Shown here in pieces: positions 6,126 to 41,956 of a stretch of DNA of 64,000 bases. Numbering within the stretch: position 1 is the stretch's first letter; each line of letters opens with the position of its first letter. The DNA lies in the NCBI GenBank assembly GCA_945904015.1, contig CAMDPK010000006.1:1-64000 (forward strand). The letters are read 5' to 3'. A program made the translations under genes and the position numbers. Below the pieces are notes generated by a model. It saw nothing but the letters and a program-made list of their open reading frames with translations, was not told the origin of the DNA and made no database searches. The stretch comes from Candidatus Kuenenia stuttgartensis (GTDB lineage Bacteria; Planctomycetota; Planctomycetia; Planctomycetales; Planctomycetaceae).

Positions 6126-7985
6126 ATGAGCTCGACTTACGCCGCCTGTGCCGAACACGTCCGACGATTGCATTCGGCCGCGCGGCAGTTGGAAGTTCAG
6201 AGCCGTTTGTTGCAACTGCCGCCGCTGGCCGGACGTGAGTGGTTTGAGTTGCTCGAACGCAAGCTGCTGCCGCAAATGACCGACGACGCGTTTCTCGTCG
6301 TTGCGGTCGTCGGCGGAACCAACATCGGCAAGAGCGTGATCTTCAACCACCTCGCCGGTTGTCGAGCCAGTGCGACGTCGCCGTTCGCGTCGGGCACGAA
6401 ACATCCCGTGTGTCTCGTGCCTCCTGGTTTCGCAGAGCGACACGACCTCCCTTCGATCTTTCGTGGCTTCGATTTGCATGAGTGGTCGCAGGCTGACGCG
6501 GCTCTCGAAGATCACCCGGAACATCGCCTGTTCTGGAGGACCAGCGATGCGACACCGTCGAACTTGCTGATCCTCGATACTCCCGATATCGACGGCGACG
6601 TGCGCGTGAATTGGGAACGAGCCGACAATATCCGCCGATGTGCCGATGTGCTGGTCGCGGTGCTCACGCAACAGAAATACAACGACGCGGCCGTCAAACA
6701 ATTCTTCCGCAAGGCGGCCGAAGAAGACAAAGCGGTGCTGATCGTCTTCAACCAAGTGCTGATGCCGGACGATGAAAACTTCTGGCCCATCTGGCTGCGC
6801 ACGTTCTGCCAAGAAACTGGCGTGCAGCCGGAGTTCGTGTACCTAGCACCGGCCGACCGCCGTGCGGCGGAAGAGAATCGGTTGCCGTTCTACGTGGGGC
6901 AGGTTTCCAACCTGCCCGTCCTGTCCGGGCAGGTTGGAAACCTGCCCCACGAGACATGCAGCTTGAAAGACGACATCTCCGCCCTGCACTTTCGCGAGAT
7001 CAAATTGCGGACGCTGCGCGGTTCGTTGCGATCCGTGCTTAACCCAGAGTCCGGCTTGCCGGCATATCTCACGGAAATTGAGCGGCGTAGTGCGGAGTTC
7101 AAATCCGCGTCCGATCTGCTTTCGACGCACCAACTGGCCGAGAGCAAAGATTGGCCTCCGATGCCGAATTCGGTGGTCGTTCAAGAAGTCCGACTGTGGT
7201 GGCAGCAGCAGCGTGAAGGTTGGACGAAAAAGGTTCACAACTTCTACAACGCAATTGGCAGCGGAATGCTCAAGCCGTTTGCGATGCTGCGAAATCACTG
7301 GCAGGGAGAACGCACACCGCCGCTCGAACAGTACCGGCAGCGCGAGTGGCAAACGATTCTCGACACCGTGGAATCGGTCTACGAGCGTCTGCGTTGGTTC
7401 GCCGAGTTGGGTAATCCGCTGTTGCAACCGCGCATTGAAAAATTGCTCGGCGGCAAGTCGCGTGTCGAGTTGCTTGAACTGCTGAAGACTCGGCACGACC
7501 TCACCGATCTGGAATATGAGATCCGCGAACTTGTCGGCATCGAGATGGAAGGGTTCCGGCAGGACAGTCCGCAATCCTTTCAGTTCATGAAATGGATCGA
7601 CCACGGTGCGGCGGCGGTGCGGCCCGTGACCAGCGTCTGCTTGTTCGTCACCGGTTTCGGCCCTGCGGGGCACGCGGTCCATCAAGTCGCGGCGAGCACC
7701 GCGTTGCAGTTCGCGGTTGATATCGCGGGCGGCACGGTTTCGGCCGTCGCCGGAGAATCGGCGATCAGTGGGGCCGCAGCCACCAGCGCGGGATTCTTCG
7801 AGGCTCGGTTCCGGCGGCTGCACGCTCGGTTCGCGGCGAAACGAGCCAGTTGGCTGGCACGGATGCTCAAGGAACACCTCTTCGGCGATTTGCCGGACGA
7901 ACTACAAATGGCGACCGCGGTTCCGCAATCGGAAACATTTCAAACAGTGCGTGAGACGATGGGCTTGCTGCAATCCAGCCTTTAG
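6126..7985 (+). CDS. Dynamin-like/Era-like GTPase, first of a tandem pair
   Basis: 619 residues from ATG 6126. The G domain covers about 55-275. G1 is GGTNIGKS at 63-70 and G3 is DTPD at 151-154 (LLILDTPDIDGDVRVN). The G4 position reads VFNQVLMPDD, a departure from NKxD. Downstream is mostly helical. Residues about 495-560 are hydrophobic and Gly/Ala-rich (VTSVCLFVTGFGPAGHAV, AVDIAGGTVSAVAGESA), suggesting membrane insertion as in bacterial dynamin-like proteins. Residues 257-276 (VGQVSNLP...GQVGNLPH) are encoded by an inserted 59-bp palindrome, placed after the G4 region and before the helical part. A related GTPase starts 70 bp downstream; the two probably work together on a membrane. Confidence 0.8.
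   Translation: MSSTYAACAEHVRRLHSAARQLEVQSRLLQLPPLAGREWFELLERKLLPQMTDDAFLVVAVVGGTNIGKSVIFNHLAGCRASATSPFASGTKHPVCLVPPGFAERHDLPSIFRGFDLHEWSQADAALEDHPEHRLFWRTSDATPSNLLILDTPDIDGDVRVNWERADNIRRCADVLVAVLTQQKYNDAAVKQFFRKAAEEDKAVLIVFNQVLMPDDENFWPIWLRTFCQETGVQPEFVYLAPADRRAAEENRLPFYVGQVSNLPVLSGQVGNLPHETCSLKDDISALHFREIKLRTLRGSLRSVLNPESGLPAYLTEIERRSAEFKSASDLLSTHQLAESKDWPPMPNSVVVQEVRLWWQQQREGWTKKVHNFYNAIGSGMLKPFAMLRNHWQGERTPPLEQYRQREWQTILDTVESVYERLRWFAELGNPLLQPRIEKLLGGKSRVELLELLKTRHDLTDLEYEIRELVGIEMEGFRQDSPQSFQFMKWIDHGAAAVRPVTSVCLFVTGFGPAGHAVHQVAASTALQFAVDIAGGTVSAVAGESAISGAAATSAGFFEARFRRLHARFAAKRASWLARMLKEHLFGDLPDELQMATAVPQSETFQTVRETMGLLQSSL
6893..6951. repeat. In-frame palindromic element (family A, copy 1)
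   Basis: 59 bp: two perfectly complementary 25-nt arms (from CGTGGGGCAGG to CCTGCCCCACG) around the 9-nt loop GTCCTGTCC. It lies inside the GTPase gene and is read as VGQVSNLP-VLS-GQVGNLPH. All three forward frames of the arms are free of stops. Confidence 0.97.
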
Positions 7986-8054
7986 GCTGTTGCCGGCAAC
8001 CGAGATGACTTCGATGACCGGCAGCAGCCGAAGCTCCAACGACTGAACTCGAAC

Positions 8055-9860
8055 ATGGCTGATTCTGAACTGGCACAACTCGAACTGTTCGCGGAGATCG
8101 ACGAATTGGTCCGTCGACTGCGTGACTTCGTCGAAGCGGACTCGACCTGGGAGCCGCTCGGTCACTGCCGAGCGATCCTGCGTCGGCTACTTGGCCGAGT
8201 CGAGACGCTGCGAATTCGGTTGGAAGCTCCGTTAGTTGTGGCCACGTTCGGCGGCACCGGCGTCGGGAAGAGTTCGCTCGTCAACGCACTGGTCGGCCGC
8301 GATTGCACTCGCACTGGCCGTGAGCGACCAACCACAACGCTTCCGGTTTTGATCGCGAATCCGGACACGAATCTCGACTCGCTCGGACTACCGCTGCCGG
8401 AGTTTGAACTTGTTCGCATCGACTCGCCGATCTTGCGAGACATCGTCGTTGTCGATTGCCCGGACCCAGATACATCCGAAGGAGAAACTGCCGGATCGAA
8501 TCTGGCGCGGTTGCGAAAGATGCTGCCGCACTGCGATGTGTTGCTGTTCGTTTCGACGCAACAGAAGTATCGCTCGGCCCGCGTCAGCGACGAATTGCAG
8601 CAGGCGGCCGAAGGTTGCCGACTGCTGTTCGTCCAAACGCACGCCGACCGCGACAGCGACATCCGCGAGGACTGGCGTCGGCAACTCGCCGAGAAGTACG
8701 CCGTGCCGGACGTCTTTTTCGTGGACTCCGTGCGAGCGTTGCAGGATCAACAAGTGGGGCGGCGACCGTCAGGCGACTTCGCCCGATTGCAAGATTTGTT
8801 GACCAGCCGCATCGCGTCGTCACAGCGCATTCAAGTGCGACGAGCGAATTTGCTGGACTTGATTCACACCGCGATCGCTCACTGCCGCGAGCATGTCGCT
8901 GCGAACCTGCCGGCGATCGAAAAACTTGAGACGGCCCTGGAGACGCAGCGACAGCGACTGCACGACGCGATGACCGCGCGGCTGAGGGATGAATTGGTCG
9001 CCAGCCAAGGATTATGGGAACGGCGACTGCTGACCGCAGTCACCGAACGTTGGGGCGTCAGTCCATTTTCGTCGATCCTGCGGGTCTATTCGGGCCTCGG
9101 CAACTTGATCGCATCGGCGACGCTGTGGCGAGCACGCTCGTCCGTGCAGATGGCGTTGATCGGTGTCGTGCAAGGGACTCGCTGGCTGTCGAGCAAACAA
9201 CAGGAACGCGAAGCCGAATCCAGTCTGCAACGCGCCGCCAGTTCGCTCGGCCTGGAAGACGATTTGTTGCGTGAATCGCAATTGGTCCTGAGTGGTTTCC
9301 TGCGCGACGCGAAGCTGACGACGTTGTCGAGCAACTCAAAAACCGTGCAAGAACTGCGGCACGAAGCGGCTCGCGTTGAAGTTCAGTTTCTGGGCGATGC
9401 CGGCCAGCGCATCGACGGCATGGTGGAAGACGTTGCGAAGAGACGTTCGGGCAAACTGATTCGTGCGTGGTACGAAACGCTGTTGCTGTCGTTCATCGGC
9501 TTCGTCTTGTACCGCGTGCTGAAAAGCTTCTTCTACGACTCGATGTTCGCGGAAGACTTACGGCATGACCCGTATTTGTCGGGAGCGTTTTACATCAACG
9601 CTGGAGTGATCTTCCTGCTGTGGTCAACGCTACTGGTAATGATGTTCACTCGCCGTTTGCGTTGTGGATTGCAGCGGCAGGTCGATCAACTCGCGGCGGA
9701 TTTGGCTCGGCAGCGGATCAGCGAGGGCTTGTTCCCGGCGTGGGAGGAAGCCTGCCGAGACATCCATTTGCACTGTGAAACGCTCGACGTCCTCGCGACA
9801 AATGCGAGTTCGGTTCGCGACCGGATCGCCACTCCGGTTCAATTCGGCGCGGCTAGGTGA
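8055..9860 (+). CDS. Membrane-associated GTPase, second of the tandem pair
   Basis: 601 residues from ATG 8055. G1 is GGTGVGKS at 66-73, followed by a switch-I-like RPTTTLPVL (about 91-99). G3 is DCPD at 134-137 (DIVVVDCPDPDTSEGET), and the G4 position is THADRD at 195-200. A helical stalk follows (about 260-460), then two membrane segments near the C-terminus (LLLSFIGFVLYRVLKSFFY and YINAGVIFLLWSTLLVMMF), a hairpin like the paddle of dynamin-like proteins. It shares the architecture of the gene upstream (70 bp gap) but is well diverged and lacks the palindrome insert. The pair could form a heteromeric membrane-remodelling GTPase; the cargo is unknown. Confidence 0.82.
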   Translation: MADSELAQLELFAEIDELVRRLRDFVEADSTWEPLGHCRAILRRLLGRVETLRIRLEAPLVVATFGGTGVGKSSLVNALVGRDCTRTGRERPTTTLPVLIANPDTNLDSLGLPLPEFELVRIDSPILRDIVVVDCPDPDTSEGETAGSNLARLRKMLPHCDVLLFVSTQQKYRSARVSDELQQAAEGCRLLFVQTHADRDSDIREDWRRQLAEKYAVPDVFFVDSVRALQDQQVGRRPSGDFARLQDLLTSRIASSQRIQVRRANLLDLIHTAIAHCREHVAANLPAIEKLETALETQRQRLHDAMTARLRDELVASQGLWERRLLTAVTERWGVSPFSSILRVYSGLGNLIASATLWRARSSVQMALIGVVQGTRWLSSKQQEREAESSLQRAASSLGLEDDLLRESQLVLSGFLRDAKLTTLSSNSKTVQELRHEAARVEVQFLGDAGQRIDGMVEDVAKRRSGKLIRAWYETLLLSFIGFVLYRVLKSFFYDSMFAEDLRHDPYLSGAFYINAGVIFLLWSTLLVMMFTRRLRCGLQRQVDQLAADLARQRISEGLFPAWEEACRDIHLHCETLDVLATNASSVRDRIATPVQFGAAR

Positions 9861-9876
9861 AGCTCAATGGCTTGGA

Positions 9877-11412
9877 CTACTTGCCGAACAACGGGCTGTT
9901 TTGACCGCCCGAAGTGGTTGGCTTGATCCGCTTGTTGCCATTGATCGCTCCCGAGACTTGGCCCGAGACCTTGTCCACCGGTGGTTCTCGTTCGCCGGCC
10001 TTCAGCTTGTATCCCTTTTCAGCTCCCGGCACGAACAATCGGCGTTGTGGCTGGTAGCCAATCCACGACAAGAAGTCGTTGAGGTTCACGACTCGCACAC
10101 CTTGCTGTTTGGCTTCGTCACCGAGAATTTTTCGGTGCTTCAGAATCAGTCCGATGCGAGCCTTGTCTTCATCCTTGACTGCGAGTGCGATGTCAGGAAT
10201 CTCGCCGATGACCAGGAACTTCGTGTTCACGTCGATGCCGGGCACGCCTTCGCCGTGGTCAATGAACTCGTTGGGAAACTTCATGTACCGGATCCGTTTG
10301 CCGTCGTCATCGACTTCGTTATCGATCGTGGCACCCGCTCCCGAGACCAGTTCATGCAGCTTCTGTCGGTCACTCTTGCCATCGCCATCGAGGTCGATGA
10401 TGCCCACAAACGAAAAGTTCTCTTTGCGACCGGGGCTCCAAATTGGCGTGAAAATCGGGTCACCTTTGGCAATCGGCTGATAAAGATCGTCCTTGATGAT
10501 GCGTGCTTCAGCGGTGTGTGCGTCAATGATGCGGGTGACTTCGATCGCCCCCTTGATGTCATTGCTGCCACGAGCCACTCCATTGTGATTCTTGGTGTAG
10601 ATGCTGAAGGTCATTCTCTTCGGCAAGTTGTCTGCCTCACCGAGGTTGATCCAGACGCGGCCGTTTTGGTGATCGACCCAGCGAATCTCGCCGTCGGCGA
10701 TCTCGAAGCTGGTCTTCTTAATTTCGTCGATCTCGTCAGACAGCTTGCCGTTGATGGCGGCGAGCTTAGAAATTTGGGCGTCAAGAGCTTTGACTTCGGC
10801 CGCCCGCGCAGCCTTTTCGTTTTCGAGTTCCGCAGCCGCCTCGTTCGCGGCGGTGGTAAGGTCGTCGATCCGCTTCTGCTTGGCGCGAACCTCTTCATCC
10901 TTGTTCTTGATGGAGACGCTCAGATCACCTTCAGCCTTCACACGGCCGGCATCTTGTGTATCGACCCGCACTTGATACTGCTTTTGGAGGTCGATGATCA
11001 GTTTCTGCGCTTCGTCTAGCTTGGCGCGGGCTTCGTCGCGTTCTTGTTCGCGCGCGGTGGATCGCTGAACCAGAGTGTTGATCGCGGCTTTGTGAGTTGG
11101 TTCGGCGACAGCCGCCTTGGCGATGTCGGCCAGGTTGCTGCCACGGACTTTGCTGACGTTCTGATCGTCGCCCAATCCATAATCATCACCGGGGTTGCCG
11201 GTCAACTTTTTGAGGTCTTCGAACTCCTCTCGCACTTTTCGTTCGAGCGCCTCGATCTTCTGGCGATCCGCGGTAGATTTGAGATTTTCCGTCGTCACCT
11301 GCCGGATGTTTTTCTGGTCCATGTAGACCAGCGTGCCGAAAACCACCCAACCCATCAACAACACGCCGACAGAGACTTGATATCCGATCGGCTTATTTTG
11401 CGGCGCAGCCAT
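9877..11412 (-). CDS. Membrane-anchored coiled-coil protein, unknown function
   Basis: 511 residues from ATG 11412, with AGAGG 8 bp upstream. One membrane segment (VSVGVLLMGWVVFGTLVYM, about 14-32) is followed by a long coiled coil (about 40-235: heptad-like runs such as KIEALERKVREEFEDLKKL and DLTTAANEAAAELENEKAA). A beta-rich domain (about 240-400) begins with DGEIRWVDHQNGRVWINLG, reminiscent of domains that follow coiled coils in other planctomycete membrane proteins, and carries a calcium-loop-like DLDGDGKSDR. The last part (HRKILGDEAKQQGVRVVN, FLSWIGYQP) faintly recalls a BRCT fold; this is only a resemblance. The C-terminal tail is Lys/Pro-rich and disordered. Convergent with the GTPase gene, 16 bp apart. 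Confidence 0.75.
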   Translation of the reverse strand: MAAPQNKPIGYQVSVGVLLMGWVVFGTLVYMDQKNIRQVTTENLKSTADRQKIEALERKVREEFEDLKKLTGNPGDDYGLGDDQNVSKVRGSNLADIAKAAVAEPTHKAAINTLVQRSTAREQERDEARAKLDEAQKLIIDLQKQYQVRVDTQDAGRVKAEGDLSVSIKNKDEEVRAKQKRIDDLTTAANEAAAELENEKAARAAEVKALDAQISKLAAINGKLSDEIDEIKKTSFEIADGEIRWVDHQNGRVWINLGEADNLPKRMTFSIYTKNHNGVARGSNDIKGAIEVTRIIDAHTAEARIIKDDLYQPIAKGDPIFTPIWSPGRKENFSFVGIIDLDGDGKSDRQKLHELVSGAGATIDNEVDDDGKRIRYMKFPNEFIDHGEGVPGIDVNTKFLVIGEIPDIALAVKDEDKARIGLILKHRKILGDEAKQQGVRVVNLNDFLSWIGYQPQRRLFVPGAEKGYKLKAGEREPPVDKVSGQVSGAINGNKRIKPTTSGGQNSPLFGK

Positions 11413-11600
11413 GACACACCTCTAAGAGAGAATGGAGTGACCGGATTATCGGAAACGGAACGAATCGACGTGACGCCGGAACTCTACCCGGCCGTTGAGC
11501 CGGGTCAAGACGCGGCCAGAAGTGCGATCGTAGCAGTCGATTCGGCCGGAGCGCGGAGCGAACGTGCGGTGCGTGGCGATTGTAGTGGGAGAGGAAACAG

Positions 11601-11709
11601 ATTGGTGATTGGTGATTGGCTGTTGGTCATTGGTGATTTTGGAGGCGCACCGACTAGATTGCGGCTGAAATTCACCAATCTCCAATAGCCAATCACCAAT
11701 GACCAATCC
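11601..11709. repeat. Long inverted repeat (family K) overlapping the polA start
   Basis: Left part ATTGGTGATTGGTGATTGGC, TTGGTCATTGGTGATTTTGG; right part ATTCACCAATCTCC, AATAGCCAATCACCAATGACCAAT. The arms are themselves built of short iterations of TTGGTGA. The right arm ends on the polA start codon (ATG 11699) and its next two codons. Confidence 0.85.
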
Positions 11710-14560
11710 CACGCTGTTCCTCATCGACACCTTCTCCCTGTTGTTTCAGGTGTTCCACGCGATTCCTTCGATGACCAGTCCGAAGGGGCTGCCGTCGAAC
11801 GCGGTCTTTGGTTTCACTCGTGATCTGTTCAACATTTTGCAGACTCAGCGACCGACGCACTGGCTGTGTGCGATGGACTCGCCGGGTCCGGGAACTCGCG
11901 AGGCTCTGTATCCCAAATACAAAGCCAATCGCACTGAGATGCCGGAAGACTTGCGGCCGCAGATCGAGATGGTGCAGCAGGTCATGGACGGCTTCGGCAT
12001 CCCGAAGCTGCGTTGCGACGGCTGGGAAGCGGACGACGTGATCGCGACGCTGACTCGGCAAGCGGTCGAGCACGGCTTCGACGTCCGCATCGTCACCAAC
12101 GACAAGGACGCTCGCCAACTGCTCGGCCCGCGCGTGCGGATTTTCAACGTTCGCAAGAACACCTGGATTGACGAATCCGATTTGAAGGCGGACTGGGGCA
12201 TCCGCCCGGACCAAGCCATCGACTTCCAATCGTTGGTCGGCGACAGCGTGGACAACGTGCCGGGAGTACCACTGGTCGGTCCCAAAAAGGCGACCGCACT
12301 GCTGGAGCAATTCGGCTCGCTCGATGAGGTGCTGTTGAATGCTGACAAGGTTTCGGGAGACAAACTCAAATCGAATCTGAAAGAGTTCGCCGATCTCGCG
12401 CGTCTCAGCCGCACGTTGGTCACACTCAATCAGCATCTCGATTTGAAAATCGACTGGGACGCGATGCAGGTCGGCCGAGTCGATGTCGCTCGGTTGGCCG
12501 CTTTGTTCCAAGAGTTCGGCTTCCGCCGCTTCATCGACGACGCCAAGTCGCTACCGAGCGAGTTTAAGCTTGCCACACAGGACGATCCCACAACGACGTC
12601 TCAGCAAGCCAGCTTGTCGTTTGAGCCGACTCATCGCTGCGAGATCGTCGAGATCGACACTCAGCTCACGGCATTTATCAAGCAATTGCAGACGCAACGC
12701 GAGTTCTGCCTCGACGTGATCGCGTCATCGCCCAACCCCACGCAAGCCGACATCATCGCCCTCACGTTCGCGTGGGAAACTGGCAAGTCGTGGTTCATCC
12801 CAGTCTCCGAACCTGCCCCTCTCCCCTTGGGAGAGGGTGGCCGAAGGCCGGGTGAGGGTTCCGAGCAACAAATCGCCAACCCACTTCAAGCCTCACAACG
12901 CCGCCAACAATCGCTCTTCGATGACAACGTGGGGCAGGTTTCCAACCTGCCCGCGAGTTCCGGGCAGGTTGGAAACCTGCCCCACGATAAGACCTCGCAT
13001 ATTCTGCTCGCCCTTAAACCGATCCTCGAATCGCCCGACGTGCAAATCGCCAACCACGATCTCAAGTTCGACCTGTTGCTGCTGCACCGCGCCGGCATTC
13101 ATGTGACCGGACTCGGCGTCGATCCGATGGTCACCAGCTATCTGCTCGAAGCCGGAGCACGCGGGCACGACCTTCCGGCTCTGGTCGAGAAACATCTCCA
13201 AAAGGCTTTACCGCCATTTGATCCCGCGCTGTTCGTGGACCAACCGCGTCTCGCTGATTGGGCTGCGGAACGAGCCGATGTGGCCTGGCAGTTGTCGCGT
13301 CAGCTCGCGGACGAATTGCGTCGCGAAGGCTTGTGGGACTTGTACTGGAACCTCGAACGTCCGCTGATCGGCGTCCTCGCCGAAATGGAAACGGCCGGCA
13401 TTCGGGTCGATGTCGCAGAGTTGCGGCGGCAATCGGTCGAGATTTCACTGCGACTGACCGACCTCGTCGCCGAGATCCATCAAATTGCCGGCCACGAGTT
13501 CAATATCGACTCGCCGAAGCAACTCGCCAAGGTGCTGTTCGAGGAACTCAGCCTGCCGGTCATGAAGAAAACTAAGACTGGTCCCAGCACCGATCAGGAC
13601 GTGTTGGAAAAGCTCGCGCTCGTGCATCCGCTGCCGGCGAAGATCATCGAGCATCGGCAACTCAGCAAGCTGAAGGGGACGTACCTCGATTCGCTGCCGG
13701 AGCTGGTCAATCCACAGACCGGCAAGATTCATGCTCGCTTCAATCAGGTCGTCGCCGCTACCGGCCGGCTCAGCAGCAGCGATCCGAACATCCAGAACAT
13801 TCCGATCCGCACAACCGAGGGGCATCGCGTCCGCAAAGCGTTCATCCCCTCCGAACCGGGCTGGCGGTTCGTCTGTGCGGACTACTCGCAAATTGAGCTG
13901 CGAATTCTCGCGCACTTCTGCGGCGATCCCGTGCTTTGTGAAGCGTTTGAGAAGGGGATCGACATCCACACTTCGGTCGCCTGCGAAATCTTCAACGTCA
14001 CGCCCGACGTGGTCAGCTCCGAGCAACGCCGCATCGCCAAAGCGGTCAACTTCGGAGTGCTCTACGGCCAGAGCGCCTTCGGTCTGTCCGAGGCGCTGCA
14101 CATCGACCAAGACGAGGCCACACTATTCATCGACCAGTACTTCGCCAAGTACGCCGCCGTGGACGAGTACATCACGAGAACGCTGGCCGAAGTTGCTCAC
14201 ACTGGCTTTGCCACAACCATTCTCGGCCGACGACGAGCCATCAACGGCATCCGTCCGGAACGCAAACAACAACTCAATCTCTCCGAGCGGACCGCCATCA
14301 ACACTGTGATCCAAGGCTCGGCTGCCGACCTCATCAAGCAAGCGATGCTTGGCGTCCACGACCGGCTCGGCAAGACTCGGCATCCCGGTCGCCTGCTTTT
14401 GCAAATTCACGACGAACTGGTTTTTGAGACTCCCGCCGACGAAGTCAAATCGCTCGCCGCATTGGTCCGCGAAGAAATGATCAGCGCCATGTCGCTGCGT
14501 GTGCCGCTCGCGGTGGATGTCTCCGCCGGCGAGAACTGGCAAGAGTTGGAGAATCTCTGA
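11699..14560 (+). CDS. polA: DNA polymerase I
   Basis: 953 residues. The 5'-3' exonuclease is at about 1-290 (GWEADDVIATL, TNDKDARQLL, GDSVDNVPGVPLVGPKKA). The 3'-5' exonuclease-like domain is at about 315-545, and the polymerase at about 550-953, with motif A DYSQIELR (about 727), motif B AKAVNFGVLYGQS and motif C QIHDELVFE (902-910). In the proofreading domain, motif I reads LDVIASS (338-344) where active enzymes have DxE, so the metal-binding Glu is replaced by Ile; later Asp positions (KFDLLLL, ERADVAW) remain. Proofreading is probably weak or lost. Between exo motifs I and II the protein carries two repeat-derived inserts (about 373-388 and 411-429). The start codon lies inside repeat K and has no obvious ribosome site. 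Confidence 0.96.
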   Translation: MTNPTLFLIDTFSLLFQVFHAIPSMTSPKGLPSNAVFGFTRDLFNILQTQRPTHWLCAMDSPGPGTREALYPKYKANRTEMPEDLRPQIEMVQQVMDGFGIPKLRCDGWEADDVIATLTRQAVEHGFDVRIVTNDKDARQLLGPRVRIFNVRKNTWIDESDLKADWGIRPDQAIDFQSLVGDSVDNVPGVPLVGPKKATALLEQFGSLDEVLLNADKVSGDKLKSNLKEFADLARLSRTLVTLNQHLDLKIDWDAMQVGRVDVARLAALFQEFGFRRFIDDAKSLPSEFKLATQDDPTTTSQQASLSFEPTHRCEIVEIDTQLTAFIKQLQTQREFCLDVIASSPNPTQADIIALTFAWETGKSWFIPVSEPAPLPLGEGGRRPGEGSEQQIANPLQASQRRQQSLFDDNVGQVSNLPASSGQVGNLPHDKTSHILLALKPILESPDVQIANHDLKFDLLLLHRAGIHVTGLGVDPMVTSYLLEAGARGHDLPALVEKHLQKALPPFDPALFVDQPRLADWAAERADVAWQLSRQLADELRREGLWDLYWNLERPLIGVLAEMETAGIRVDVAELRRQSVEISLRLTDLVAEIHQIAGHEFNIDSPKQLAKVLFEELSLPVMKKTKTGPSTDQDVLEKLALVHPLPAKIIEHRQLSKLKGTYLDSLPELVNPQTGKIHARFNQVVAATGRLSSSDPNIQNIPIRTTEGHRVRKAFIPSEPGWRFVCADYSQIELRILAHFCGDPVLCEAFEKGIDIHTSVACEIFNVTPDVVSSEQRRIAKAVNFGVLYGQSAFGLSEALHIDQDEATLFIDQYFAKYAAVDEYITRTLAEVAHTGFATTILGRRRAINGIRPERKQQLNLSERTAINTVIQGSAADLIKQAMLGVHDRLGKTRHPGRLLLQIHDELVFETPADEVKSLAALVREEMISAMSLRVPLAVDVSAGENWQELENL
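12816..12858. repeat. In-frame repeat (family P) inside polA
   Basis: CCCCTCTCCCCTTGGGAGAG followed by GGTGGCCGAAGGCCGGGTGAGGG: a CTCTCCC/GGGAGAG hairpin, a GGCCGAAGGCC hairpin and a GGGTGAGGG tail. It is read in frame as PLPLGEGGRRPGEGS in the exonuclease-like domain of DNA polymerase I. Confidence 0.85.
12928..12986. repeat. In-frame palindromic element (family A, copy 2)
   Basis: 59 bp with the same perfect 25-nt arms as copy 1 and a different 9-nt loop (GCGAGTTCC). It encodes VGQVSNLP-ASS-GQVGNLPH at residues 411-429 of DNA polymerase I. Confidence 0.97.
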
Positions 14561-14573
14561 GCGGCTTCAAAAC

Positions 14574-14640
14574 CGTAGCCACGTTCGCCAGAACGTGGGA
14601 AGGTTCGAAAACACTCCACGTTCTGGCGAACGTGGCTACG
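14574..14640. repeat. Palindromic element (family C, copy 1)
   Basis: 67 bp: perfect 25-nt arms beginning CGTAGCCACGTTCGCC and ending GGCGAACGTGGCTACG around a 17-nt loop. Located between polA and the next gene; could form a strong hairpin downstream of polA. Confidence 0.93.
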
Positions 14641-14684
14641 ACGGAGTCGAGTTTAGAAATTGCTTCTCGCAAAAAGGACAAGCC

Positions 14685-15548
14685 ATGAAGGAACACCTCA
14701 TCACCGTCATCCTATCGGTCGCCACCACGTTGGGAGTCATGCAAGTCGGCACCGAGCGACCGAAAGTGCTCGAAGTCGATCGGTTGATCGTCCGCAAGGA
14801 ATTGATCGTGTCCGACACCGGCCAGCCGTGGGAGGCTGGCTTTGAAGCTCATCAGATCCCGCGTGGCATCTACGCGCGTTCGCTGTGGGACGGCCCGGGC
14901 GGATTGTGGGTTCGCAGCCGGCTGATCAAAGGTGAGATCGACGATCCCTTTGACGACCGATTTCACGCTCTCGAAAAAGATGGCAGCCGACGCGGTTCGC
15001 CCGGCCACATTTCCTGGAACGTGTGGCTCGATGGAGCGTGGCGGCAAATGGCAATCATCCAAGGGGAAGGACTGGAGCATTCCGAAGTCCCGCAAAAGGA
15101 GTGGTCGGGGCTGACTCATCCAGGGCGAATTCGCTTTCAATCGTTCCGGCCCGGGCACGGCGAACCCCTGACCGACGCGATCATCGGCCAGGGCATGATG
15201 TCGCTCGGCGGCGGCGGCTACGGCGGCGGCGGACTGCCGTATCCCAGTGAGGTTCTGCAACTCTGGGGAGGTGAACTGCGGCAGGCGGAAATTCCCACCC
15301 CGGCGGCTCCCACCGTCTTGAAAGACGACGGCTCAGGTGAGCATCACTACACGATCATGGCCATCGGCGTCCAAGGCCGTCGCACGGCCGCCTCGCGAGT
15401 CACGAAAGCCGGAGGCTTCGCGAAGCTCCGCTGGGACAGTGTTCCCGGTGCTGATGCCTACGTCGTTGTCCGCGACGGAAAAGAAATCACCGGCCCACTG
15501 CGAATCGAAGGCTCGCAGAAGGAATGGACGGACAAGGCGGCGCAATGA
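14685..15548 (+). CDS. Exported or membrane-anchored protein with C-terminal fibronectin-like domain
   Basis: 287 residues from ATG 14685, chosen because AAAAAGGA lies 7 bp upstream; an in-frame extension further upstream runs through the palindromic repeat and is unlikely. The N-terminus (LITVILSVATTLGVMQVG) is an uncleaved anchor or signal peptide. The middle is unrecognised, with a Gly-rich loop (LGGGGYGGGGLPYPS) at about 174-188. The last 80 residues (APTVLKDDGSGEHHYTIMAI ... LRWDSVPGADAYVVVRDGKEI) look like a fibronectin type III-like domain. Function unknown. Confidence 0.7.
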   Translation: MKEHLITVILSVATTLGVMQVGTERPKVLEVDRLIVRKELIVSDTGQPWEAGFEAHQIPRGIYARSLWDGPGGLWVRSRLIKGEIDDPFDDRFHALEKDGSRRGSPGHISWNVWLDGAWRQMAIIQGEGLEHSEVPQKEWSGLTHPGRIRFQSFRPGHGEPLTDAIIGQGMMSLGGGGYGGGGLPYPSEVLQLWGGELRQAEIPTPAAPTVLKDDGSGEHHYTIMAIGVQGRRTAASRVTKAGGFAKLRWDSVPGADAYVVVRDGKEITGPLRIEGSQKEWTDKAAQ

Positions 15549-15552
15549 GCCA

Positions 15553-17658
15553 CTACGGCAGAAAAATTTGCTCTTCGGGCTGATCTTGTGGTTGCTGCTG
15601 TGGCTGCTGGGGTTGTTGCGGTCTTTGCGGCGGCGGTTTTTGTTGAGGCTTCGTGAAGATTTTCTGGAGTCGCTTTTGTAATTCGGTGGAGTTGATTTTG
15701 CCGTCGAGCTTCACAACCTGCACCGAGTTGGTCGGACGCGCGGCGCGATCAAGTTGGTCGATCAACTCAGAGATGTTCTCCAGCAGGCTTTCGGGAGCCG
15801 AGACGATGATCGTGTTGGAGATGTCATCGACTCCCAACGAGACTAAGCCTTTGAATTTGATCGGAGTTTCCTGCTTGGATTTGTCGTCGCTTTCGGCGTT
15901 GCCGTAGACGAAGGTGTAGTTGCGTTCGGGAGGCTTCTGCCCTTCTTTGCCTTGTTGATTGTTCTGGTACGCCTTGTCGTTGGTGGAGAGCAGGTCGCGG
16001 TACACGTCTTTGACCGCCTCGGCGAGGACGGTCGCCTTGGAGTACTTGAGCGTGAAGACTTGCGTCTTGCGAACTTGCTTGCCATCGGTGGCGAGTGGTT
16101 TATCGTAGATGTTGATCAACTCTTCGATGACCTTGAGCTGCGCCGCGTCAGCTCCTTGAACGATGATCGTGCCGCTGTCGGAATCAGAGATGAACTTCAG
16201 CGGCTTCTTTTTGGAGAGTCGGCGCGAGGAATCCTGATTCGAGTTGCTCTCCATTCGGCCGAAATACGGATTGAAACTGCTGGTAGGCTTCTTTTTGTCT
16301 TCCTCGAAGAAATCCTTGAGGCTGAGTTCGACGGAATACGCCCAGGTCGTCGAGTGCTTGAGGTAGAAGACTTTGTAGTCGCGTTTCGGCGGCGCGGCTT
16401 CTTGCAGCAACTCTTCGAGTTGGTCGAGAGCGTTCGTGTCCTGCGATTCGAGGATCAGCCGACCGTCGGGACCACGTCGGATGTGGATCGGGGCGTGGGG
16501 TAGGTTTTCAACCTGCCCGGCTCGCTTGCGATTTTCGATTCGATTTGAGGGGACTGTCGGCGGATCTTCAGCAGCGGGCAGGTTGGAAACCTGCCCCACG
16601 TCGTCAGCGATGGCCAGAAGCACTTCGCGAGCCTGCGATGGCATTGCGGCACGAGCAGATGGAACGGGCTTCTTCGGAGTCGCAGCCTTCGAACCTTTGG
16701 CCTTGGCCGCGGGCTTTTCTTTCGCGGGTTCGTTTCGAGGCGCGGAGGTCTCCGGCGACTCGGTCGGTTCGGCCTGTCGGGGTCGTCGCGACGGGCCAGC
16801 GTCCTCGATGATGAGTTCATTGGGACTGATGCCGGGCCAGATGCGGCGGATGCGTTCCAGTAATTGCTCGGCGTCATCCGCGTCGAGGTTGTCGAGATAC
16901 CGCTGCGTGTTGCGATTTCCGCCGGGCGGAGCGATCTCGCCTAATTTCATCAGCAGGTTTTCGATCTCGCGAAGTTCGATCTCGTTGGCCCACAGCAGCA
17001 GGCGATTGTTCTCGACATCGGCATCGACTTTGAACTTGTCGCTGCTGTCGGTCTGCGACGATCGGCCGCCCATCATCGAGAAACCGTCGAAGTAACCGTA
17101 GTACGGATTTTGGCGGCCCTGGGTCTTCTCCTTTTCACCTCCGGCCATCATGAACTCGATCGTGCCGGCGACGTAATCGGCTCCGAGCTTGCGCAGCGGG
17201 ATCACCTGAAACTTGCGGCCGGTGCCGTCGAGCTTTTCGACCAGCATCTTGATCGTCAGGTGATCAGCCAGCGAAGCGTACGCGATGATCGACTTGTTCT
17301 TGGTGTCGATTTGCAGCTTGGTGGTTGGATCGAGATTGCCAACTTCCTCCAGCAGATCGACCAGCGATTGCGGTTCGATGCCGCTGAGTCGATGGACCTG
17401 CATTCGCGAGAGATTCTGCAGCAGATGCTCGTGCGAGGATTGGACATCGAGCGTCTTCACGGCTTGCGAGACGATCGCCATTTTGTCGGGAGGCGCGGTC
17501 GCGAGAATGCTGTTCTCCCGCTCGTTGGCCAACAGCCTGACTTCGCCTGGTTTGGCACTGGCTCCGCCACCCGGCTTCGCTTGCCCTGCGGCCTGCTGCA
17601 TTTGCTGCATCATCTGCTGCATTTGCTGCTGGAACTGCTGCATCATGTTGGGGTCCAT
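15553..17658 (-). CDS. Secretin-N-repeat protein, C-terminal part (frameshifted from the N-terminal part)
   Basis: 701 residues if begun at ATG 17658, but it has no signal peptide and starts inside a Gln/Met-rich stretch (MDPNMMQQFQQQMQQMMQQM). It is the continuation of the ORF ending at 17264, split by the nine-C run at 17663-17671. It contains several NolW/secretin-N-type modules: QVIPLRKLGADYVAGTIEFM, KVFYLKHSTTWAYSVELSL and QVFTLKYSKATVLAEAVKDV, each followed by a VDxxxNTIIVSAPE-like strand. A Ser/Pro/Lys-rich linker sits between. There is no secretin channel domain; the C-terminus is a Pro/Gln-rich tail. A family A palindrome (16494-16600) is translated in the middle. Probably periplasmic; role unknown. 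Confidence 0.85.
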   Translation of the reverse strand: MDPNMMQQFQQQMQQMMQQMQQAAGQAKPGGGASAKPGEVRLLANERENSILATAPPDKMAIVSQAVKTLDVQSSHEHLLQNLSRMQVHRLSGIEPQSLVDLLEEVGNLDPTTKLQIDTKNKSIIAYASLADHLTIKMLVEKLDGTGRKFQVIPLRKLGADYVAGTIEFMMAGGEKEKTQGRQNPYYGYFDGFSMMGGRSSQTDSSDKFKVDADVENNRLLLWANEIELREIENLLMKLGEIAPPGGNRNTQRYLDNLDADDAEQLLERIRRIWPGISPNELIIEDAGPSRRPRQAEPTESPETSAPRNEPAKEKPAAKAKGSKAATPKKPVPSARAAMPSQAREVLLAIADDVGQVSNLPAAEDPPTVPSNRIENRKRAGQVENLPHAPIHIRRGPDGRLILESQDTNALDQLEELLQEAAPPKRDYKVFYLKHSTTWAYSVELSLKDFFEEDKKKPTSSFNPYFGRMESNSNQDSSRRLSKKKPLKFISDSDSGTIIVQGADAAQLKVIEELINIYDKPLATDGKQVRKTQVFTLKYSKATVLAEAVKDVYRDLLSTNDKAYQNNQQGKEGQKPPERNYTFVYGNAESDDKSKQETPIKFKGLVSLGVDDISNTIIVSAPESLLENISELIDQLDRAARPTNSVQVVKLDGKINSTELQKRLQKIFTKPQQKPPPQRPQQPQQPQQQPQDQPEEQIFLP
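16494..16600. repeat. In-frame palindromic element (family A, copy 3, long loop)
   Basis: Arms 16494-16518 and 16576-16600 match family A with two mismatches, but the loop is 57 nt instead of 9. On the minus strand it is read in frame inside the secretin-N protein as VGQVSNLP, a spacer of about 18 residues, then GQVENLPH. Confidence 0.95.
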
Positions 17659-18968: not shown

Positions 18969-20756
18969 ATGCCAGCCAGCCATGTGGAAGAACCCGCGCT
19001 ACTTCGACCGAATCGGCCCGCCAAGCCGACTCCGCGACCGGAGCGAATTCCAAAGTCAACGACCTCCGCTTGCGTCACTCAGCCAACCGCTCCGAAGAGC
19101 CAACCGGTCGCCGCGAAAAAAATCAGTCGCGGAGCTGGCTCGGACATTCACCGCCTGATCGGGCCGTTCTTGATCGAAAAGAAACTGGGCGTCGGCGGCA
19201 TGGGGATCGTCTACAAGGCGAACTACACCAAGAACGGAGCCGAGGTCGCGGTCAAAGTGCTGCCGCTGGTTCTGTCCGCGAACAAGAAACTCGTCGATCG
19301 CTTCAACCGCGAGATGGCGATTCTGAAGAAACTGAAGCACCCGCGAATCGTGCAGTTCTACGGCGGCGGCGAACAAGACGGTCAGCATTTCTACGCGATG
19401 GAATTCATCGACGGCGGCACGCTGGCGGAGTTGCTCCAGGAAAAGGGCCGGCTGCCGTGGCAGCAGGTCATCGAGTTCGGCGTGCAAATTGCCGAAGCCC
19501 TCGAGCACGCGCACGATCACGGCATCGTGCATCGTGACCTCAAGCCGGCGAATTTGTTTCTCGGCCAAGACGGCAAGCTGCGGCTGGGAGATTTCGGAAT
19601 CGCTCGCGACTCCGATGCGACCGCGCTGACCGCTGCCGGATCGACGGTCGGCACGCAAGCCTACATGGCTCCCGAGCAAATCACCGGCAAGCAACTGATT
19701 AGCAACAAGACCGACTTGTACGCACTGGGCTGCGTCATGTTCGAGATGCTCACCGGCCGCGTCCCGTTCAAAGGGGCCGCCTCGATGGAAGTGCTGCTCA
19801 AGCACATCAACGAGGCTCCGGCGAAAATCCGTACCGAGGTCATGGACTGTCCGGTGTTCCTCGAACAGGTCGTCCTGCAACTGCTCGAAAAATCGCCGGA
19901 CAAACGCCCGCACGACGCGCTGATGGTGCAAATCGCCCTGGAGGAAGTCATCGAACGAGTCGCCGCCAAGACCAGCACGATGACGCAGATGACTGCAGGA
20001 GCCGGCCAAACCGCGATCGACATGTCGCAACTCTCCGATCCGGCCCAGTTGAAGAAACTGCTCGGCAAGAAAAAGAAGAAACGCAAAGCGACCGGCCCAA
20101 TCTGGGAACGCGGTTGGTTTCTGGCAAGTTGCCTGGCCGTGATGCTCGGCGGCGTTGCGTGGTCGCTGATGCCGCCGTCCGAAGAAAAACTCTTCGCTCA
20201 CGCGCTGCCGCTGATGCAAACCGACGACCCGGTCAAATGGCAAGAGGCCAACGATCGGTATCTGAAGTCGCTGCTGGAGCGTTTCCCGAATGGCCAGCAC
20301 GCCGACGAGGCTCGCGACCTGATCGACAAGCTGGAGATGCACCGCACCGAACGGGGCATCGAAACCCGCCTGCGACTCGGCCAAGATCCGAAGCACGAAG
20401 CCGAGCGGCTATTCCTGCAAGCTCGCGAACTCGAACGCTTCGGCGATTATCTTTCCGCGCGCGAGCAATACCGCGCCCTGATCGACTTGCTCAAAGATCG
20501 CGAGCAAGACCGCTCGTACCGCAACCTCGCCAAACAGCAACTCGCGGTGTTGGAAAACGCCGGAGACGGCAACGTCGATCGCAAACAAATCGTAAACGAC
20601 GCCCTAAAGAACGCGCGCGAACAGTTCCTCGGCGGCAAGACGCACGCCGCCGAGGAAACCTGGCGGAGCATCATCAAGCTCTACGACGGCAAAGCCGAAT
20701 TCGCCGAAGAAGTCACCGAAGCCCGCGCCGGCCGAGCAGGCCGGTTGAACGAGTAA
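18969..20756 (+). CDS. Membrane Ser/Thr protein kinase with C-terminal extracytoplasmic helical region
   Basis: 595 residues from ATG 18969. A Pro-rich N-terminal tail (1-60) precedes the kinase domain (about 63-330): Gly loop GVGGMGIVY (74-82), Lys96 in AVKVL, HRDLKPAN (188-195), DFG at 208-210 and APEQ at 235-238. A Lys-rich stretch (LGKKKKKRK) precedes the membrane segment (WFLASCLAVMLGGVAWSLM, 383-401). The last 190 residues are charged helices that look like TPR-type repeats (ERLFLQARELERFGDYLSAR, EQFLGGKTHAAEETWRSIIK). There are no PASTA repeats. All catalytic residues are present. The TAA stop at 20754-20756 is the first three bases of palindrome B1. Confidence 0.92.
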   Translation: MPASHVEEPALLRPNRPAKPTPRPERIPKSTTSACVTQPTAPKSQPVAAKKISRGAGSDIHRLIGPFLIEKKLGVGGMGIVYKANYTKNGAEVAVKVLPLVLSANKKLVDRFNREMAILKKLKHPRIVQFYGGGEQDGQHFYAMEFIDGGTLAELLQEKGRLPWQQVIEFGVQIAEALEHAHDHGIVHRDLKPANLFLGQDGKLRLGDFGIARDSDATALTAAGSTVGTQAYMAPEQITGKQLISNKTDLYALGCVMFEMLTGRVPFKGAASMEVLLKHINEAPAKIRTEVMDCPVFLEQVVLQLLEKSPDKRPHDALMVQIALEEVIERVAAKTSTMTQMTAGAGQTAIDMSQLSDPAQLKKLLGKKKKKRKATGPIWERGWFLASCLAVMLGGVAWSLMPPSEEKLFAHALPLMQTDDPVKWQEANDRYLKSLLERFPNGQHADEARDLIDKLEMHRTERGIETRLRLGQDPKHEAERLFLQARELERFGDYLSAREQYRALIDLLKDREQDRSYRNLAKQQLAVLENAGDGNVDRKQIVNDALKNAREQFLGGKTHAAEETWRSIIKLYDGKAEFAEEVTEARAGRAGRLNE

Positions 20757-20845
20757 CCCGAAGCGTCAGCGAGGGCGAACGCTAAACCGACGTGATTAGC
20801 GGCGAAGCGTTCTGGAGCGTTCGCCCTCGCTGACGCTTCGGGTTA
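20754..20845. repeat. Palindromic element (family B, copy 1)
   Basis: Arms TAACCCGAAGCGTCAGCGAG (continuing GGCGAACGCT) and the complement ending CGCTGACGCTTCGGGTTA, about 30 nt each, around a loop of about 32 nt. It lies between two convergent genes and supplies the stop codon of the kinase gene. Confidence 0.95.
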
Positions 20846-28004: not shown

Positions 28005-28131
28005 GTAGCCCTGTCGCTCCGCGACAGGAAAGCCGAACACTTCCAACGGCGTCGATCGCGCGATCAATCCACAAGCACCAATTCACGACATTCTCACGCC
28101 CGGCTGTCCTGTCGCGGAGTGACAGGGCTAC
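28005..28131. repeat. Long inverted repeat (family F)
   Basis: Arms GTAGCCCTGTCGCTCCGCGA (then CAGGAAAGCC) and the near complement GGCTGTCCTGTC, GCGGAGTGACAGGGCTAC around a loop of about 65 nt. It occupies the divergent intergenic region between an ABC ATPase gene and moxR. Confidence 0.9.
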
Positions 28132-34004: not shown

Positions 34005-34309
34005 TTCGCTGTGGTTCCGTCGTTTGTCAGGAAAGAACAGGCCCGTCTTCACGCGAGGCTTCCGAACCTCGACCGGCCAAAGTCGGGCGGGATTGTAGGC
34101 CCGGCGGCGTGATGCCTCAACGCCGGTTGGAAAGCGTTGGCCACGGCATACCAACCCGAAGCGTCAGCGAGGGCGAACGCTGCAAAGTGCCTCCAAATCC
34201 ACGTCTGCTGGAGCGCTCGCCCTCGCTGACGCTTCGGGTTAGTGTGTCGCCACTCGACGGACTTGAGATTGCACACGGAGTGTGCCTGCTAGGATTTGGA
34301 GAATTCGCG
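34005..34309. other. Divergent intergenic region holding palindrome B2
   Basis: 305 bp between metK and the amidase gene. About 90 bp is the family B palindrome; the rest should hold the two promoters, which I cannot assign. Confidence 0.5.
34153..34240. repeat. Palindromic element (family B, copy 2)
   Basis: AACCCGAAGCGTCAGCGAGG ... GCCCTCGCTGACGCTTCGGGTT, about 28-nt arms around a loop of about 32 nt, in the metK-amidase intergenic region. Confidence 0.95.
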
Positions 34310-35644: not shown

Positions 35645-35668
35645 TGTCGCCACTCAAACACAAAAACA

Positions 35669-35742
35669 GTATCACGGCTGTCGGCAAACGGCTGTCGGCG
35701 TTCGGCCGAATGCCGACAGCCGTTCGCCGACAGCCGTGATAC
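35669..35742. repeat. Palindromic element (family H, copy 1)
   Basis: Long imperfect hairpin: GTATCACGGCTGTCGGC, then ACGGCTGTCGGC, mirrored by GCCGACAGCCG and GCCGACAGCCGTGATAC. Lies between the amidase and M20 genes. Diverged copy at 55690-55799. Confidence 0.92.
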
Positions 35743-35768
35743 CATTTTTCCAAATCTGAAAGGCAATC

Positions 35769-40921: not shown

Positions 40922-40991
40922 GAGGATGTTCCTTCGGTGTCGTTCGAGATTCGCAGCCCAGTGCCGCGCGGGGCGGGATGATAGACAGAAC

Positions 40992-41078
40992 TAACCCGAA
41001 GCGTCAGCGAGGGCGGGCGCTCCGATCGACGATGATAGACAGCGTGTGAAGCGCTCGCCCTCGCTGACGCTTCGGGTT
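40992..41078. repeat. Palindromic element (family B, copy 3)
   Basis: TAACCCGAAGCGTCAGCGAG ... GCTCGCCCTCGCTGACGCTT, CGGGTT: arms of about 27 nt, loop about 33 nt. It lies just after the stop codon of the FGE-like gene at 41081-41083. Confidence 0.95.
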
Positions 41079-41080
41079 GG

Positions 41081-41956
41081 TTATTTTTTCGCTTTCACGC
41101 AGCGAAGGCCGATGGCGTCGTCGAGTACATCGACGGAGACGGCTCGGCGAGCGGAGCTGGTCAGTTTCGAGTGGTTGTCTTTCCACGATCCACTGCGGAC
41201 GACGACTTTCTTGGGAGTCGTCTCGGACCAGGCGCGGCCGTCGGTTGGAGCGCCGTCGTAGTTGTCGTGCCAACTGTCTTCGACGAATTCCCAGAGATAG
41301 CCGTGGACATCGTACAAGCCCCAGGCGTTGGGCTTCTTGGCTCCGACGGGCGGATCGTTGCCCGCCGCGTTGCCGGTGTGCCAACCGAATTCGTCGAGCA
41401 CCGAGGCTTTGTTTCCAGCGTCGCCTTCTTTTGTTGCCTTGTCACCGAAGCTGTAGATGGTCGTCGTTCCCGCTCGGCAGCAGTATTCCCATTCGGCTTC
41501 GGTCGGCAGGCGGATGACTTCGTCGTCGGAGAGCAGCTTCTCGGCACGCAGTAACTCCGTCAGTTTGTTGCAGAAGTCGCGAGCCTCTTGCCACGAGAAC
41601 ATCTCGACCGAGTTGCGTGGCCCCTTCCACTTGCTGGGATTCGCTCCTGTCACGGCCTCCCAAAGATTCTGCGGCACCTCGTACTTGGCGATCGAGAATT
41701 TTTTCGTGAGCGTGACTTCGTGGATTGGCATTTCGGAGCCAGTCTGGTCGCTCCCCATGCGGAACGATTTCGGAAACGTGATCGAGCCGTCGCGAGATTT
41801 CTCACCGGGAGCAATCTCGATGAACTCGTCGTTGAATCGCTTGAGGAGTTCTGACTTGGTTGGCTTCGCAGTCGTTTTCACAGTCTTGTCCTCCGAACGT
41901 ACTGCGATGGCGCAACACAGCAGCAAACCGAGAGCGGGAAGAGCGAATCGAAGCAT
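41081..41956 (-). CDS. Exported FGE-sulfatase (SUMF1-like) domain protein
   Basis: 291 residues from ATG 41956 (AAAGGAAA upstream), with a signal peptide (ALPALGLLLCCAIAVRS). The formylglycine-generating-enzyme fold is recognised by SFRMGSDQTGSEMPIHEVTL, KYEVPQNLWEAVTG, WQEARDFCNKL, RLPTEAEWEYCCRAGTTT, NAWGLYDVHGYLWEFVEDSW, RSGSWKDN and AIGLRCV. The Cys pair needed for sulfatase activation in aerobic FGE is not evident; most bacterial relatives of this length are of unknown function. KDPG aldolase lies 16 bp upstream on the same strand. Confidence 0.9.
   Translation of the reverse strand: MLRFALPALGLLLCCAIAVRSEDKTVKTTAKPTKSELLKRFNDEFIEIAPGEKSRDGSITFPKSFRMGSDQTGSEMPIHEVTLTKKFSIAKYEVPQNLWEAVTGANPSKWKGPRNSVEMFSWQEARDFCNKLTELLRAEKLLSDDEVIRLPTEAEWEYCCRAGTTTIYSFGDKATKEGDAGNKASVLDEFGWHTGNAAGNDPPVGAKKPNAWGLYDVHGYLWEFVEDSWHDNYDGAPTDGRAWSETTPKKVVVRSGSWKDNHSKLTSSARRAVSVDVLDDAIGLRCVKAKK

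Follow-up and report, generated by a model that had tools for sequence, protein, structure and literature searches.

Hairpin pairs of the repetitive extragenic palindrome (REP) type are usually located between genes. GTAG-tagged REPs have stems of mostly 6-9 bp and short loops (many of them TY), form head-to-head dimers with variable spacers and fall into subfamilies with complementary stems (Di Nocera et al., 2013, PMC3733652), and in most GTAG-20 elements of Opitutus terrae the tag is GTGG. Intragenic, in-frame REP dimers or groups encoding 20-30 residues have been described, with DNA polymerase I among the hosts, as has a single case, recB of two Xanthomonas species, in which different REPs lie at about one site (PMC3733652). 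A GT[AG]G foot 5′ of the hairpin is canonical for TnpA-REP systems (the REPtron or REP-associated tyrosine transposase, RAYT; PMC6006769). Rickettsia palindromic elements (RPEs), given as 100-150 bp, are found at corresponding positions of orthologues, in regions exposed to solvent (PMC3767692); the tag of RPE-4 and RPE-6 is CGTC (PMC3733652). The subject of the present analysis is a palindromic element that interrupts three unrelated genes, in frame, within a 64,000-nt stretch (the window) of a draft planctomycete genome (GCA_945904015.1, contig CAMDPK010000006.1; the genome is G000 below). Judged by their sequence, these palindromes are a new GTRG-tagged REP family that acts like the Rickettsia elements without being one. 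The observations as a whole are very probably best explained by GTGG-tagged REP head-to-head dimers that have spread, are translated when coding, are subject to selection and turn over in place.

The report on GTAG-tagged REPs is the nearest one found to the intragenic GTGG-GGCAGG dimers. The likeness extends to the tag, stem and short loop, to dimers with the tags outside, to variable spacers and to intragenic copies including one in DNA polymerase I, although the GGCAGG stem family was not found described in the consulted sections of that report and no cognate RAYT was found for it in the surroundings of 91 Y1 matches. In-frame REPs are thus already in print (PMC3733652); new here are a measured frame and length bias of the coding copies, a Ser/Phe shift in the hairpin loop, the sharing of slots at many sites, and largely identical arms with site-specific spacers. 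With the RPEs the family has in common that dispersed palindromes lie in frame in genes without destroying them and at shared sites of orthologues; it differs in its tag (GTGG rather than the CGTC of RPE-4 and RPE-6), from the 100-150 bp given for RPEs, and in phylum. The parallel with RPEs drawn in the preliminary description therefore holds as an analogy but not as an identity, since the anatomy is that of a GTRG-tagged REP head-to-head dimer. The REPtron/RAYT systems share the GT[AG]G foot before the hairpin, and other GTAG hairpins adjoin Y1 genes in the genus, but the GTGG-GGCAGG family directly flanks none of the 91 Y1 genes matched.

Anatomy, copy number and distribution of the hairpin dimers

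The repeat unit is GTGG-GGCAGGTT-TYC-AACCTGCC, that is, a tag, an 8-bp stem and a 3-nt loop (TCC or TTC), so that each arm of the palindromes is a small hairpin in itself with a one-sided GTGG tag, a feature missing from the preliminary description. G000 (7.43 Mb in 286 contigs, 91.7% complete) contains 318 exact stems with a 3-nt loop, against 0 for a reversed-pattern control. Among 58 relatives searched, exact stems were detected in 10/11 other genomes of the genus (G001 to G011; 1 to 177 stems each) and in 3/25 genomes of other genera of the family (17, 2 and 1), and in 0/22 genomes of other families. The further copies that the preliminary description had proposed to look for are thus plentiful both in the genome and in its relatives. 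A GTRG tag, mostly GTGG, immediately precedes the stem in 310 matches (149 and 161 by strand) and so marks one side of nearly every hairpin. All results come from draft assemblies, home-made gene calls and a sample taken in contig order. In 55 stretches of G000 plus the window, picked by listed copies or Y1 genes and hence not random, 122 units were found at ≤2 mismatches, 102 of them exact (102/318 exact stems). Three of the 122 lack the tag, their orientation being assigned from the loop, and one (C31:9180) is tagged on both sides.

These units are arranged as 56 dimers with the tags outside and 10 singles, with 0 close pairs in any other orientation. Two arm sequences that differ solely in the loop make up 73/112 arms (51 and 22), and the spacers between arms range from 5 to 62 nt. 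A second subfamily with the compensated stem GGCACGTT/AACGTGCC has 55 matches in G000 and 239 in G004 and is present in 11/12 genus genomes, and further compensated stem variants, AGCACGTT and AGCACGAT, occur at L201. High copy number with a stem of 6-9 bp and a short loop, a tag at one end, head-to-head dimers and compensated subfamilies, the features by which GTRG-tagged REPs are recognized, are therefore all present.

The window holds three copies (Table 1), at the positions given in the preliminary description, whose overall observation is confirmed. The 25-nt arms with loops of 9, 9 and 57 nt described there were recovered, the full arms being 26 nt in all three copies, with 100% complementarity in copies 1 and 2 and 92% in copy 3; the DNA fold z-scores of copies 2 and 3 are -11.8 and -6.6. 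Six stem matches (≤3 mismatches) occur in the window, whereas 100 shuffled versions averaged 0.19 and none gave six. The peptide VGQVSNLP..GQV(G/E)NLPH is read in frame from all three open reading frames (ORFs), on both strands, as had been described. The arm had also been said to be free of stops in all three frames, which is true of TCC-loop arms only; the TTC-loop arm, present in copy 3 and the commoner type genome-wide (51 vs 22 of 112 arms), has a TGA in one frame (RAG*KPAPR).

Table 1. Palindromic dimers of the GTGG-GGCAGG family in the window and the genes that contain them
Feature	Position	Strand	Arms	Description
Copy 1, head-to-head REP dimer	6893..6951		6893-6918 and 6926-6951	GTPase residues 257-275; 24-nt units with a 9-nt spacer between; DNA single-strand fold -36.7 kcal/mol, z -11.6
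Copy 2, head-to-head REP dimer	12928..12986		12928-12953 and 12961-12986	DNA polymerase I residues 411-429
Copy 3, head-to-head REP dimer	16494..16600		16494-16519 and 16575-16600	Secretin-N protein (minus strand) residues 354-388; 57-nt spacer
Host gene 1	6126..7985	+		GTPase (PF01926), 619 aa
Host gene 2	11699..14560	+		DNA polymerase I, 953 aa
Host gene 3	15553..17658	-		Protein with Secretin_N domains, 701 aa

A miniature inverted-repeat transposable element (MITE) is defined by a target-site duplication and a conserved internal sequence. Here the spacers are unrelated between sites, and boundaries are obscured by the variability of sites without the element. Among the spacers of at least 12 nt in G000 (39/56), the best between-site scores (24, 21 and 20) are hardly above those of one shuffled set (22, 20 and 18). 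It is unlikely that dimer and spacer move as one unit through a transposase recognizing long terminal inverted repeats: such a unit would suit the strict outward arrangement of the pairs, the perfect 26-nt arms of copies 1 and 2 and the flanking bases (C preceding GTGG in 52/56 dimers, G following CCAC in 52/56), but it should carry its spacer with it, which the scores just given speak against, and a search that covered Y1 genes only found no autonomous parent. Because the spacers are site-specific whereas the arms are largely identical, the arms have spread, or have been homogenized, apart from the spacers.

Frame, length and composition of the coding copies

Genes were called with a home-made hexamer coding model at a score threshold of 0.12, and a dimer was counted as strictly coding when both flanks were coding in one frame, with no stop and an open frame of at least 60 nt on each side. 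By this definition 24/56 dimers are strictly coding, and frame 0 is the starting frame of every one of them (p 2e-8 when set against the CG-dinucleotide phase in long ORFs), which extends to the sampled part of the genome the single reading frame previously described for the window, an observation that at 3/3 is weak when taken alone. Insertion at CG dinucleotides was considered as a source of the frame bias and rejected, the fitting phase accounting for only 48% of CG dinucleotides in long ORFs, too few for 24/24. The length of the dimer is a multiple of three in 22/24 strictly coding copies vs 12/32 others (Fisher p 3e-5). In a looser class 27 dimers are coding, 25 of them in frame 0, and the two out-of-frame members, together with one further copy, start ≤6 nt from the edge of the open frame; the 29 dimers outside this class have a coding signal on both sides but not through (17), on one side (11) or on neither (1). 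Raising the threshold to 0.25 leaves 18/18 in frame 0, with lengths divisible by three in 16/18 vs 18/38. For replication in sister genomes, 20 stretches with listed GGCAGG copies were taken from G007 and 20 with listed GGCACG copies from G006, yielding 17 dimers with 5 coding and 18 dimers with 8 coding, respectively, of which 11/13 coding dimers are in frame 0; in G006 the length is a multiple of three in 6/8 coding vs 3/10 noncoding dimers.

The unpaired bases of an arm are those of the hairpin loop, and read in frame 0 the upstream-arm triplet is Phe when TTC and Ser when TCC, the corresponding downstream residues being Glu (GAA) and Gly (GGA). In G000 the ratio of TCC to TTC is 17:7 in coding upstream arms, 8:16 in coding downstream arms and 3:54 in noncoding arms (excluding 7 noncoding arms with other triplets), so that upstream arms differ from noncoding arms (p 2e-9) and from downstream arms (p 0.02). 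With other coding thresholds the former comparison gives p ≤3e-5 and the latter p 0.02 to 0.07. In G006 and G007 together, again excluding other triplets, the ratios are 10:3 upstream, 0:12 downstream and 9:30 noncoding (upstream vs noncoding p 9e-4; upstream vs downstream p 1e-4), although some of these sites are possibly shared by descent with G000, for which reason the replication is not fully independent. The spacers of coding copies are also hydrophilic in the sense frame, with a mean Kyte-Doolittle value of -1.26 vs 0.26 for the antisense reading (p 0.001; 20/24 long enough) and vs -0.38 for noncoding spacers (p 0.0025). The excess of TCC, and hence Ser, in upstream coding arms points to translation and selection, and from the biases in frame, length and triplet use we infer that the inserts are translated and under selection. 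No report of a Ser/Phe loop bias was found in those parts of the literature on such repeats that were searched, which is no proof of absence.

That VGQVSNLP is a conserved functional peptide motif, with the palindrome as a by-product, is highly improbable even though an identical peptide recurs in unrelated proteins: 32/56 dimers are not strictly coding, and the segment is collapsed or replaced in sister species and absent from 69 more distant GTPase loci. This candidate was rejected, being contradicted by the noncoding copies.

Shared sites in sister species and proposed turnover in place

In an AlphaFold2 model of the GTPase (41 sequences, mean predicted local distance difference test score, pLDDT, 78.7), residues 261-274 have pLDDT <50 and form a predicted coil between a strand and a helix, and among 80 planctomycete orthologues the place of the insert is a length-variable loop flanked by two conserved blocks. 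Most of the 11 nearest orthologues (75-95% identity) have the element or remnants of it; none of the remaining 69 loci has VGQV-type residues at the site, so that distant orthologues carrying the same residues, which would have spoken against insertion, were not encountered. The proposed tolerance of the insert at a surface loop is thus consistent with the model for the GTPase, the only protein modelled. In the DNA polymerase I (PolA), residues 411-429 are the insert, which ends where the matched portion of the 3′-5′ exonuclease domain begins (428-502, profile positions 57-130), and in the secretin-N protein the insert (354-388) lies within a stretch poorly conserved among species. A distant GTPase orthologue, L344, has EGEAPAEP in the same loop (GGGAGGGCGAGGCTCCCGCCGAGCC), resembling the palindrome at C27:46238 in G009.

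At the GTPase site GGCAGG-type arms are present in G000, G006 and G010 and GGCACG-type arms in G002, G004 and G009 (degenerate), while G005, G007 and G011 retain shortened remnants. G008 has a different palindrome (CCGAAGCGTGAGCGAGGG..CCCTCGCTGGCGCTTCGGG), G003 has another (GCGAGCGGAGG..CCTCCGCTCGC), and G001 has neither. The PolA element occurs in G000, G005 (degenerate), G002, G004, G007 and G010 and is absent in G003, G009 and G011 and from the parts examined of the G006 gene, which is divided between two contigs; in G001 and G008 the linker of PolA contains the CCGAAGCGT family in a degenerate form. The secretin element is found in G000, G005 (left arm partly lost), G002, G004, G007 and G010 (left part degenerate in G002 and G010) and is absent in G001, G006, G009 and G011, in a comparison that leaves out G003 and G008. 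Together with the genome-wide copies, this presence and absence among sister species supports the in-frame insertion, without loss of the gene, of a dispersed palindrome; of the clean insertion that comparison of orthologues had been expected to reveal, presence and absence are seen, but sites without the element are too variable for exact boundaries. Although G000 is a draft of 286 contigs, an assembly or contamination artefact is barely conceivable and was rejected, since several further draft genomes of the genus have copies at matching sites. The nearest named database records add little to this, as in part they seem to be these genomes again (L292 shares its contig number and match position with G008:C1346).

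The comparison was extended to 21 further coding sites by a joined-flank search in five sister genomes, in which 18 sites were comparable and gave 66 site-by-genome cases; the same family was called by a loose match (≤6 mismatches) and a different palindrome by an inverted-repeat score of at least 36. The slot contains the same family in 8 cases, the same family collapsed to about one hairpin in 5, a different palindrome in 11 and none in 42, of which 5 score 31 to 35. In the control, 0/132 flanking stretches (up to 100 nt) reach a score of 36 and the maximum is 29, a control that separates slots from better-conserved neighbouring coding sequence rather than an insertion hotspot from mere tolerance. 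A different family is present in at least one sister at 9/18 sites with the strict threshold and at 10/18 with the lower one. One alternative family, GTRGGATGGGCACTCYTGCCCGTCC, is GTAG-tagged and occurs in 12/12 genus genomes, with 56 matches in G000, and at C2:15562 in G006 one palindrome is nested inside another. As far as the portions of the literature searched extend, no report of systematic slot sharing at many sites was found, which likewise does not prove that there is none.

Within a site the spacer can be followed across species. The 9-nt GTPase spacer of G000, GTCCTGTCC, is the exact reverse complement of that of G006 and G010, from which it follows that the segment between the inverted arms was flipped. 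Spacer homology is clear at several of the sites that retain the family (C13:49475 and C15:35121 in G005, C15:50224 in G006, C19:11827 in G005, and C16:9218 with G005 and G011); it is not clear at C13:49475 with G009, and that of C1:18841 with G005 is weak. At C15:50224 in G006 both arms are of the CACG type while the spacer is homologous to that of the CAGG copy of G000, and the stem of the left hairpin in G011 at C16:9218 differs by compensated changes. An arm swap between families with the spacer kept was suspected at C15:10440 but rejected, the spacer similarity there being not significant. The spacers were also considered as pre-existing target DNA, and no clear match to element-free orthologous sites was obtained, the best cases being reached by 5% of unrelated comparisons, so that at these sites there is no support for a pair of independent insertions on either side of older sequence. 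Template switching or gene conversion between hairpins, copying arms onto arms with the spacers as bystanders, would account for the two sequences that make up 73/112 arms, for the changed arms at C16:9218 and C15:50224 and for the spacer inversion at the GTPase site. As the main means of spread and upkeep it is nevertheless a rather doubtful alternative, because it explains turnover in place but not the arrival of the 56 dimers at new sites, and because the other palindromes in shared slots belong to different families.

Somewhat tentatively, it may be proposed that a small number of surface loops in ordinary proteins of the genus are standing slots that are repeatedly entered, rewritten and replaced by unrelated REP-type palindromes, so that hairpin parasites and selection at the level of translation would together be a main generator of these loops, with arms evolving in concert within a genome and a spacer that is vertically inherited and can flip.

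Proposed course of events, transposases and neighbouring palindromes

In the preferred explanation, that of GTGG-tagged REP dimers selected as coding sequence, the family would have spread in the ancestor of part of the planctomycete genus and within its species, probably, to judge from its anatomy, as single-stranded hairpins moved by an HUH/Y1 transposase. Genic copies would persist in surface loops of variable length that can accommodate about 20 extra residues, provided that the element has a length divisible by three and that the frame gives VGQV(S/F)NLP..GQV(E/G)NLPH. Once fixed, the insert would be translated and trimmed by selection, from Phe to Ser in the upstream hairpin loop and towards hydrophilic spacers. 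The DNA would remain palindromic throughout its turnover in place, in which stems change in a coordinated way (CAGG to CACG), spacers invert, dimers collapse to one hairpin and, in sister lineages, other palindromic families take over.

Several results weigh against this explanation. The gene caller is home-made, and its threshold of 0.12 is below the 95th percentile (0.17) of out-of-frame stretches; when ORFs of at least 300 aa are used with no score, frame 0 is seen in 26/32 dimers and lengths divisible by three in 24/32 vs 10/24, and the contrast between upstream and downstream triplets has p 0.07. Of the coding dimers of G006, 2/8 do not start in frame 0, and in G007 lengths divisible by three are found in 9/12 noncoding dimers as well as in 5/5 coding ones. 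TCC is also more frequent in the downstream coding arms of G000 than in noncoding arms (p 0.002), an excess that is not accounted for by selection against Phe, though it is not seen in G006 and G007. The 11 different-family cases are unevenly distributed (G006 7, G009 2, G005 1, G003 1, G011 0). Orthologous sites without the element are variable rather than clean empty sites, so that insertion boundaries and target are not proved. Finally, the family directly flanks 0/91 Y1 matches of the genus, some of whose flanks are cut by contig ends.

Of these Y1 transposase matches 8 are in G000, and the search for a cognate enzyme, limited to Y1 genes, found none beside the 91. In four stretches (L185, L201, L208 and L213) the GTGG-GGCAGG family is 0.5 to 2 kb from a Y1 match, never directly on both sides, and for this reason the family is not classed as a REPtron-linked REP. 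GTAG-tagged hairpins of other kinds flank or adjoin Y1 genes, for example at L178, L172 and L213; at L178 the gene is a REP-associated tyrosine transposase (NF047646) with GTAGGGCAGGC and GTAGGGTCGGC hairpins. By anatomy, a putative RAYT route is plausible for the GTGG-GGCAGG family. Mobility, likewise proposed in the preliminary description, is accordingly still an inference, with no enzyme linked to the family and element-free sites too variable to define its boundaries.

The window has 38 inverted-repeat pairs in all, 25 of them listed. Three dimers of a second palindromic family, AACCCGAAGCGTCAGCGAGGGCG plus an inverted copy, are at 20754-20845, 34144-34249 and 40989-41082; other copies of this family read NPKRERG or TRSVSEG, and a relative is found at the GTPase site of G008 and at the PolA site of G001 and G008. 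On contig 69 of G000, L021:1309-1974 is a Y1 gene of IS200-like type (weak NF033573 match), with repeated TRSVSEGE units at the end of its open frame and six copies of that repeat in the locus; this gene may encode the enzyme tied to the second family. On contig 5, L022:1365-1880 is a partial Y1 match beside the palindrome GTGG-CACAGGTT-CGCAG-AACCTGTG, by which the gene may be interrupted. Dimers of another REP family (GTAGCCACGTTCGCCAGAACGTGG and a relative), GTAG-tagged with the tags outside, are located at 14574-14640, just downstream of polA, and at 50938-51004. Within polA, upstream of copy 2, another insert-like stretch at ~12812-12866 (PLPLGEGGRRPGEGS; CTCTCCC..GGGAGAGGG type) is also found in G003, G005, G006, G009 and G011. 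Further inverted-repeat pairs are at 1138-1206, 28005-28131 and 35662-35749, some with CGTAGG or GTAGCC ends. The isolate names (LacPavin, Erken) of the nearest planctomycete metagenome assemblies suggest a link to lakes.

In-frame palindromes are known from Rickettsia and from REPs, and whether such inserts are merely tolerated or shaped by selection has been hard to test. Here one genus supplies many copies, with coding copies and noncoding controls in one genome and with matching sites in sister species. In the upstream hairpin the sole unpaired bases shift from Phe to Ser, a change seldom seen in noncoding copies, and this amounts to a genomic test of translation and selection; the use of common slots by different palindromes suggests a general way in which selfish DNA provides proteins with loops.

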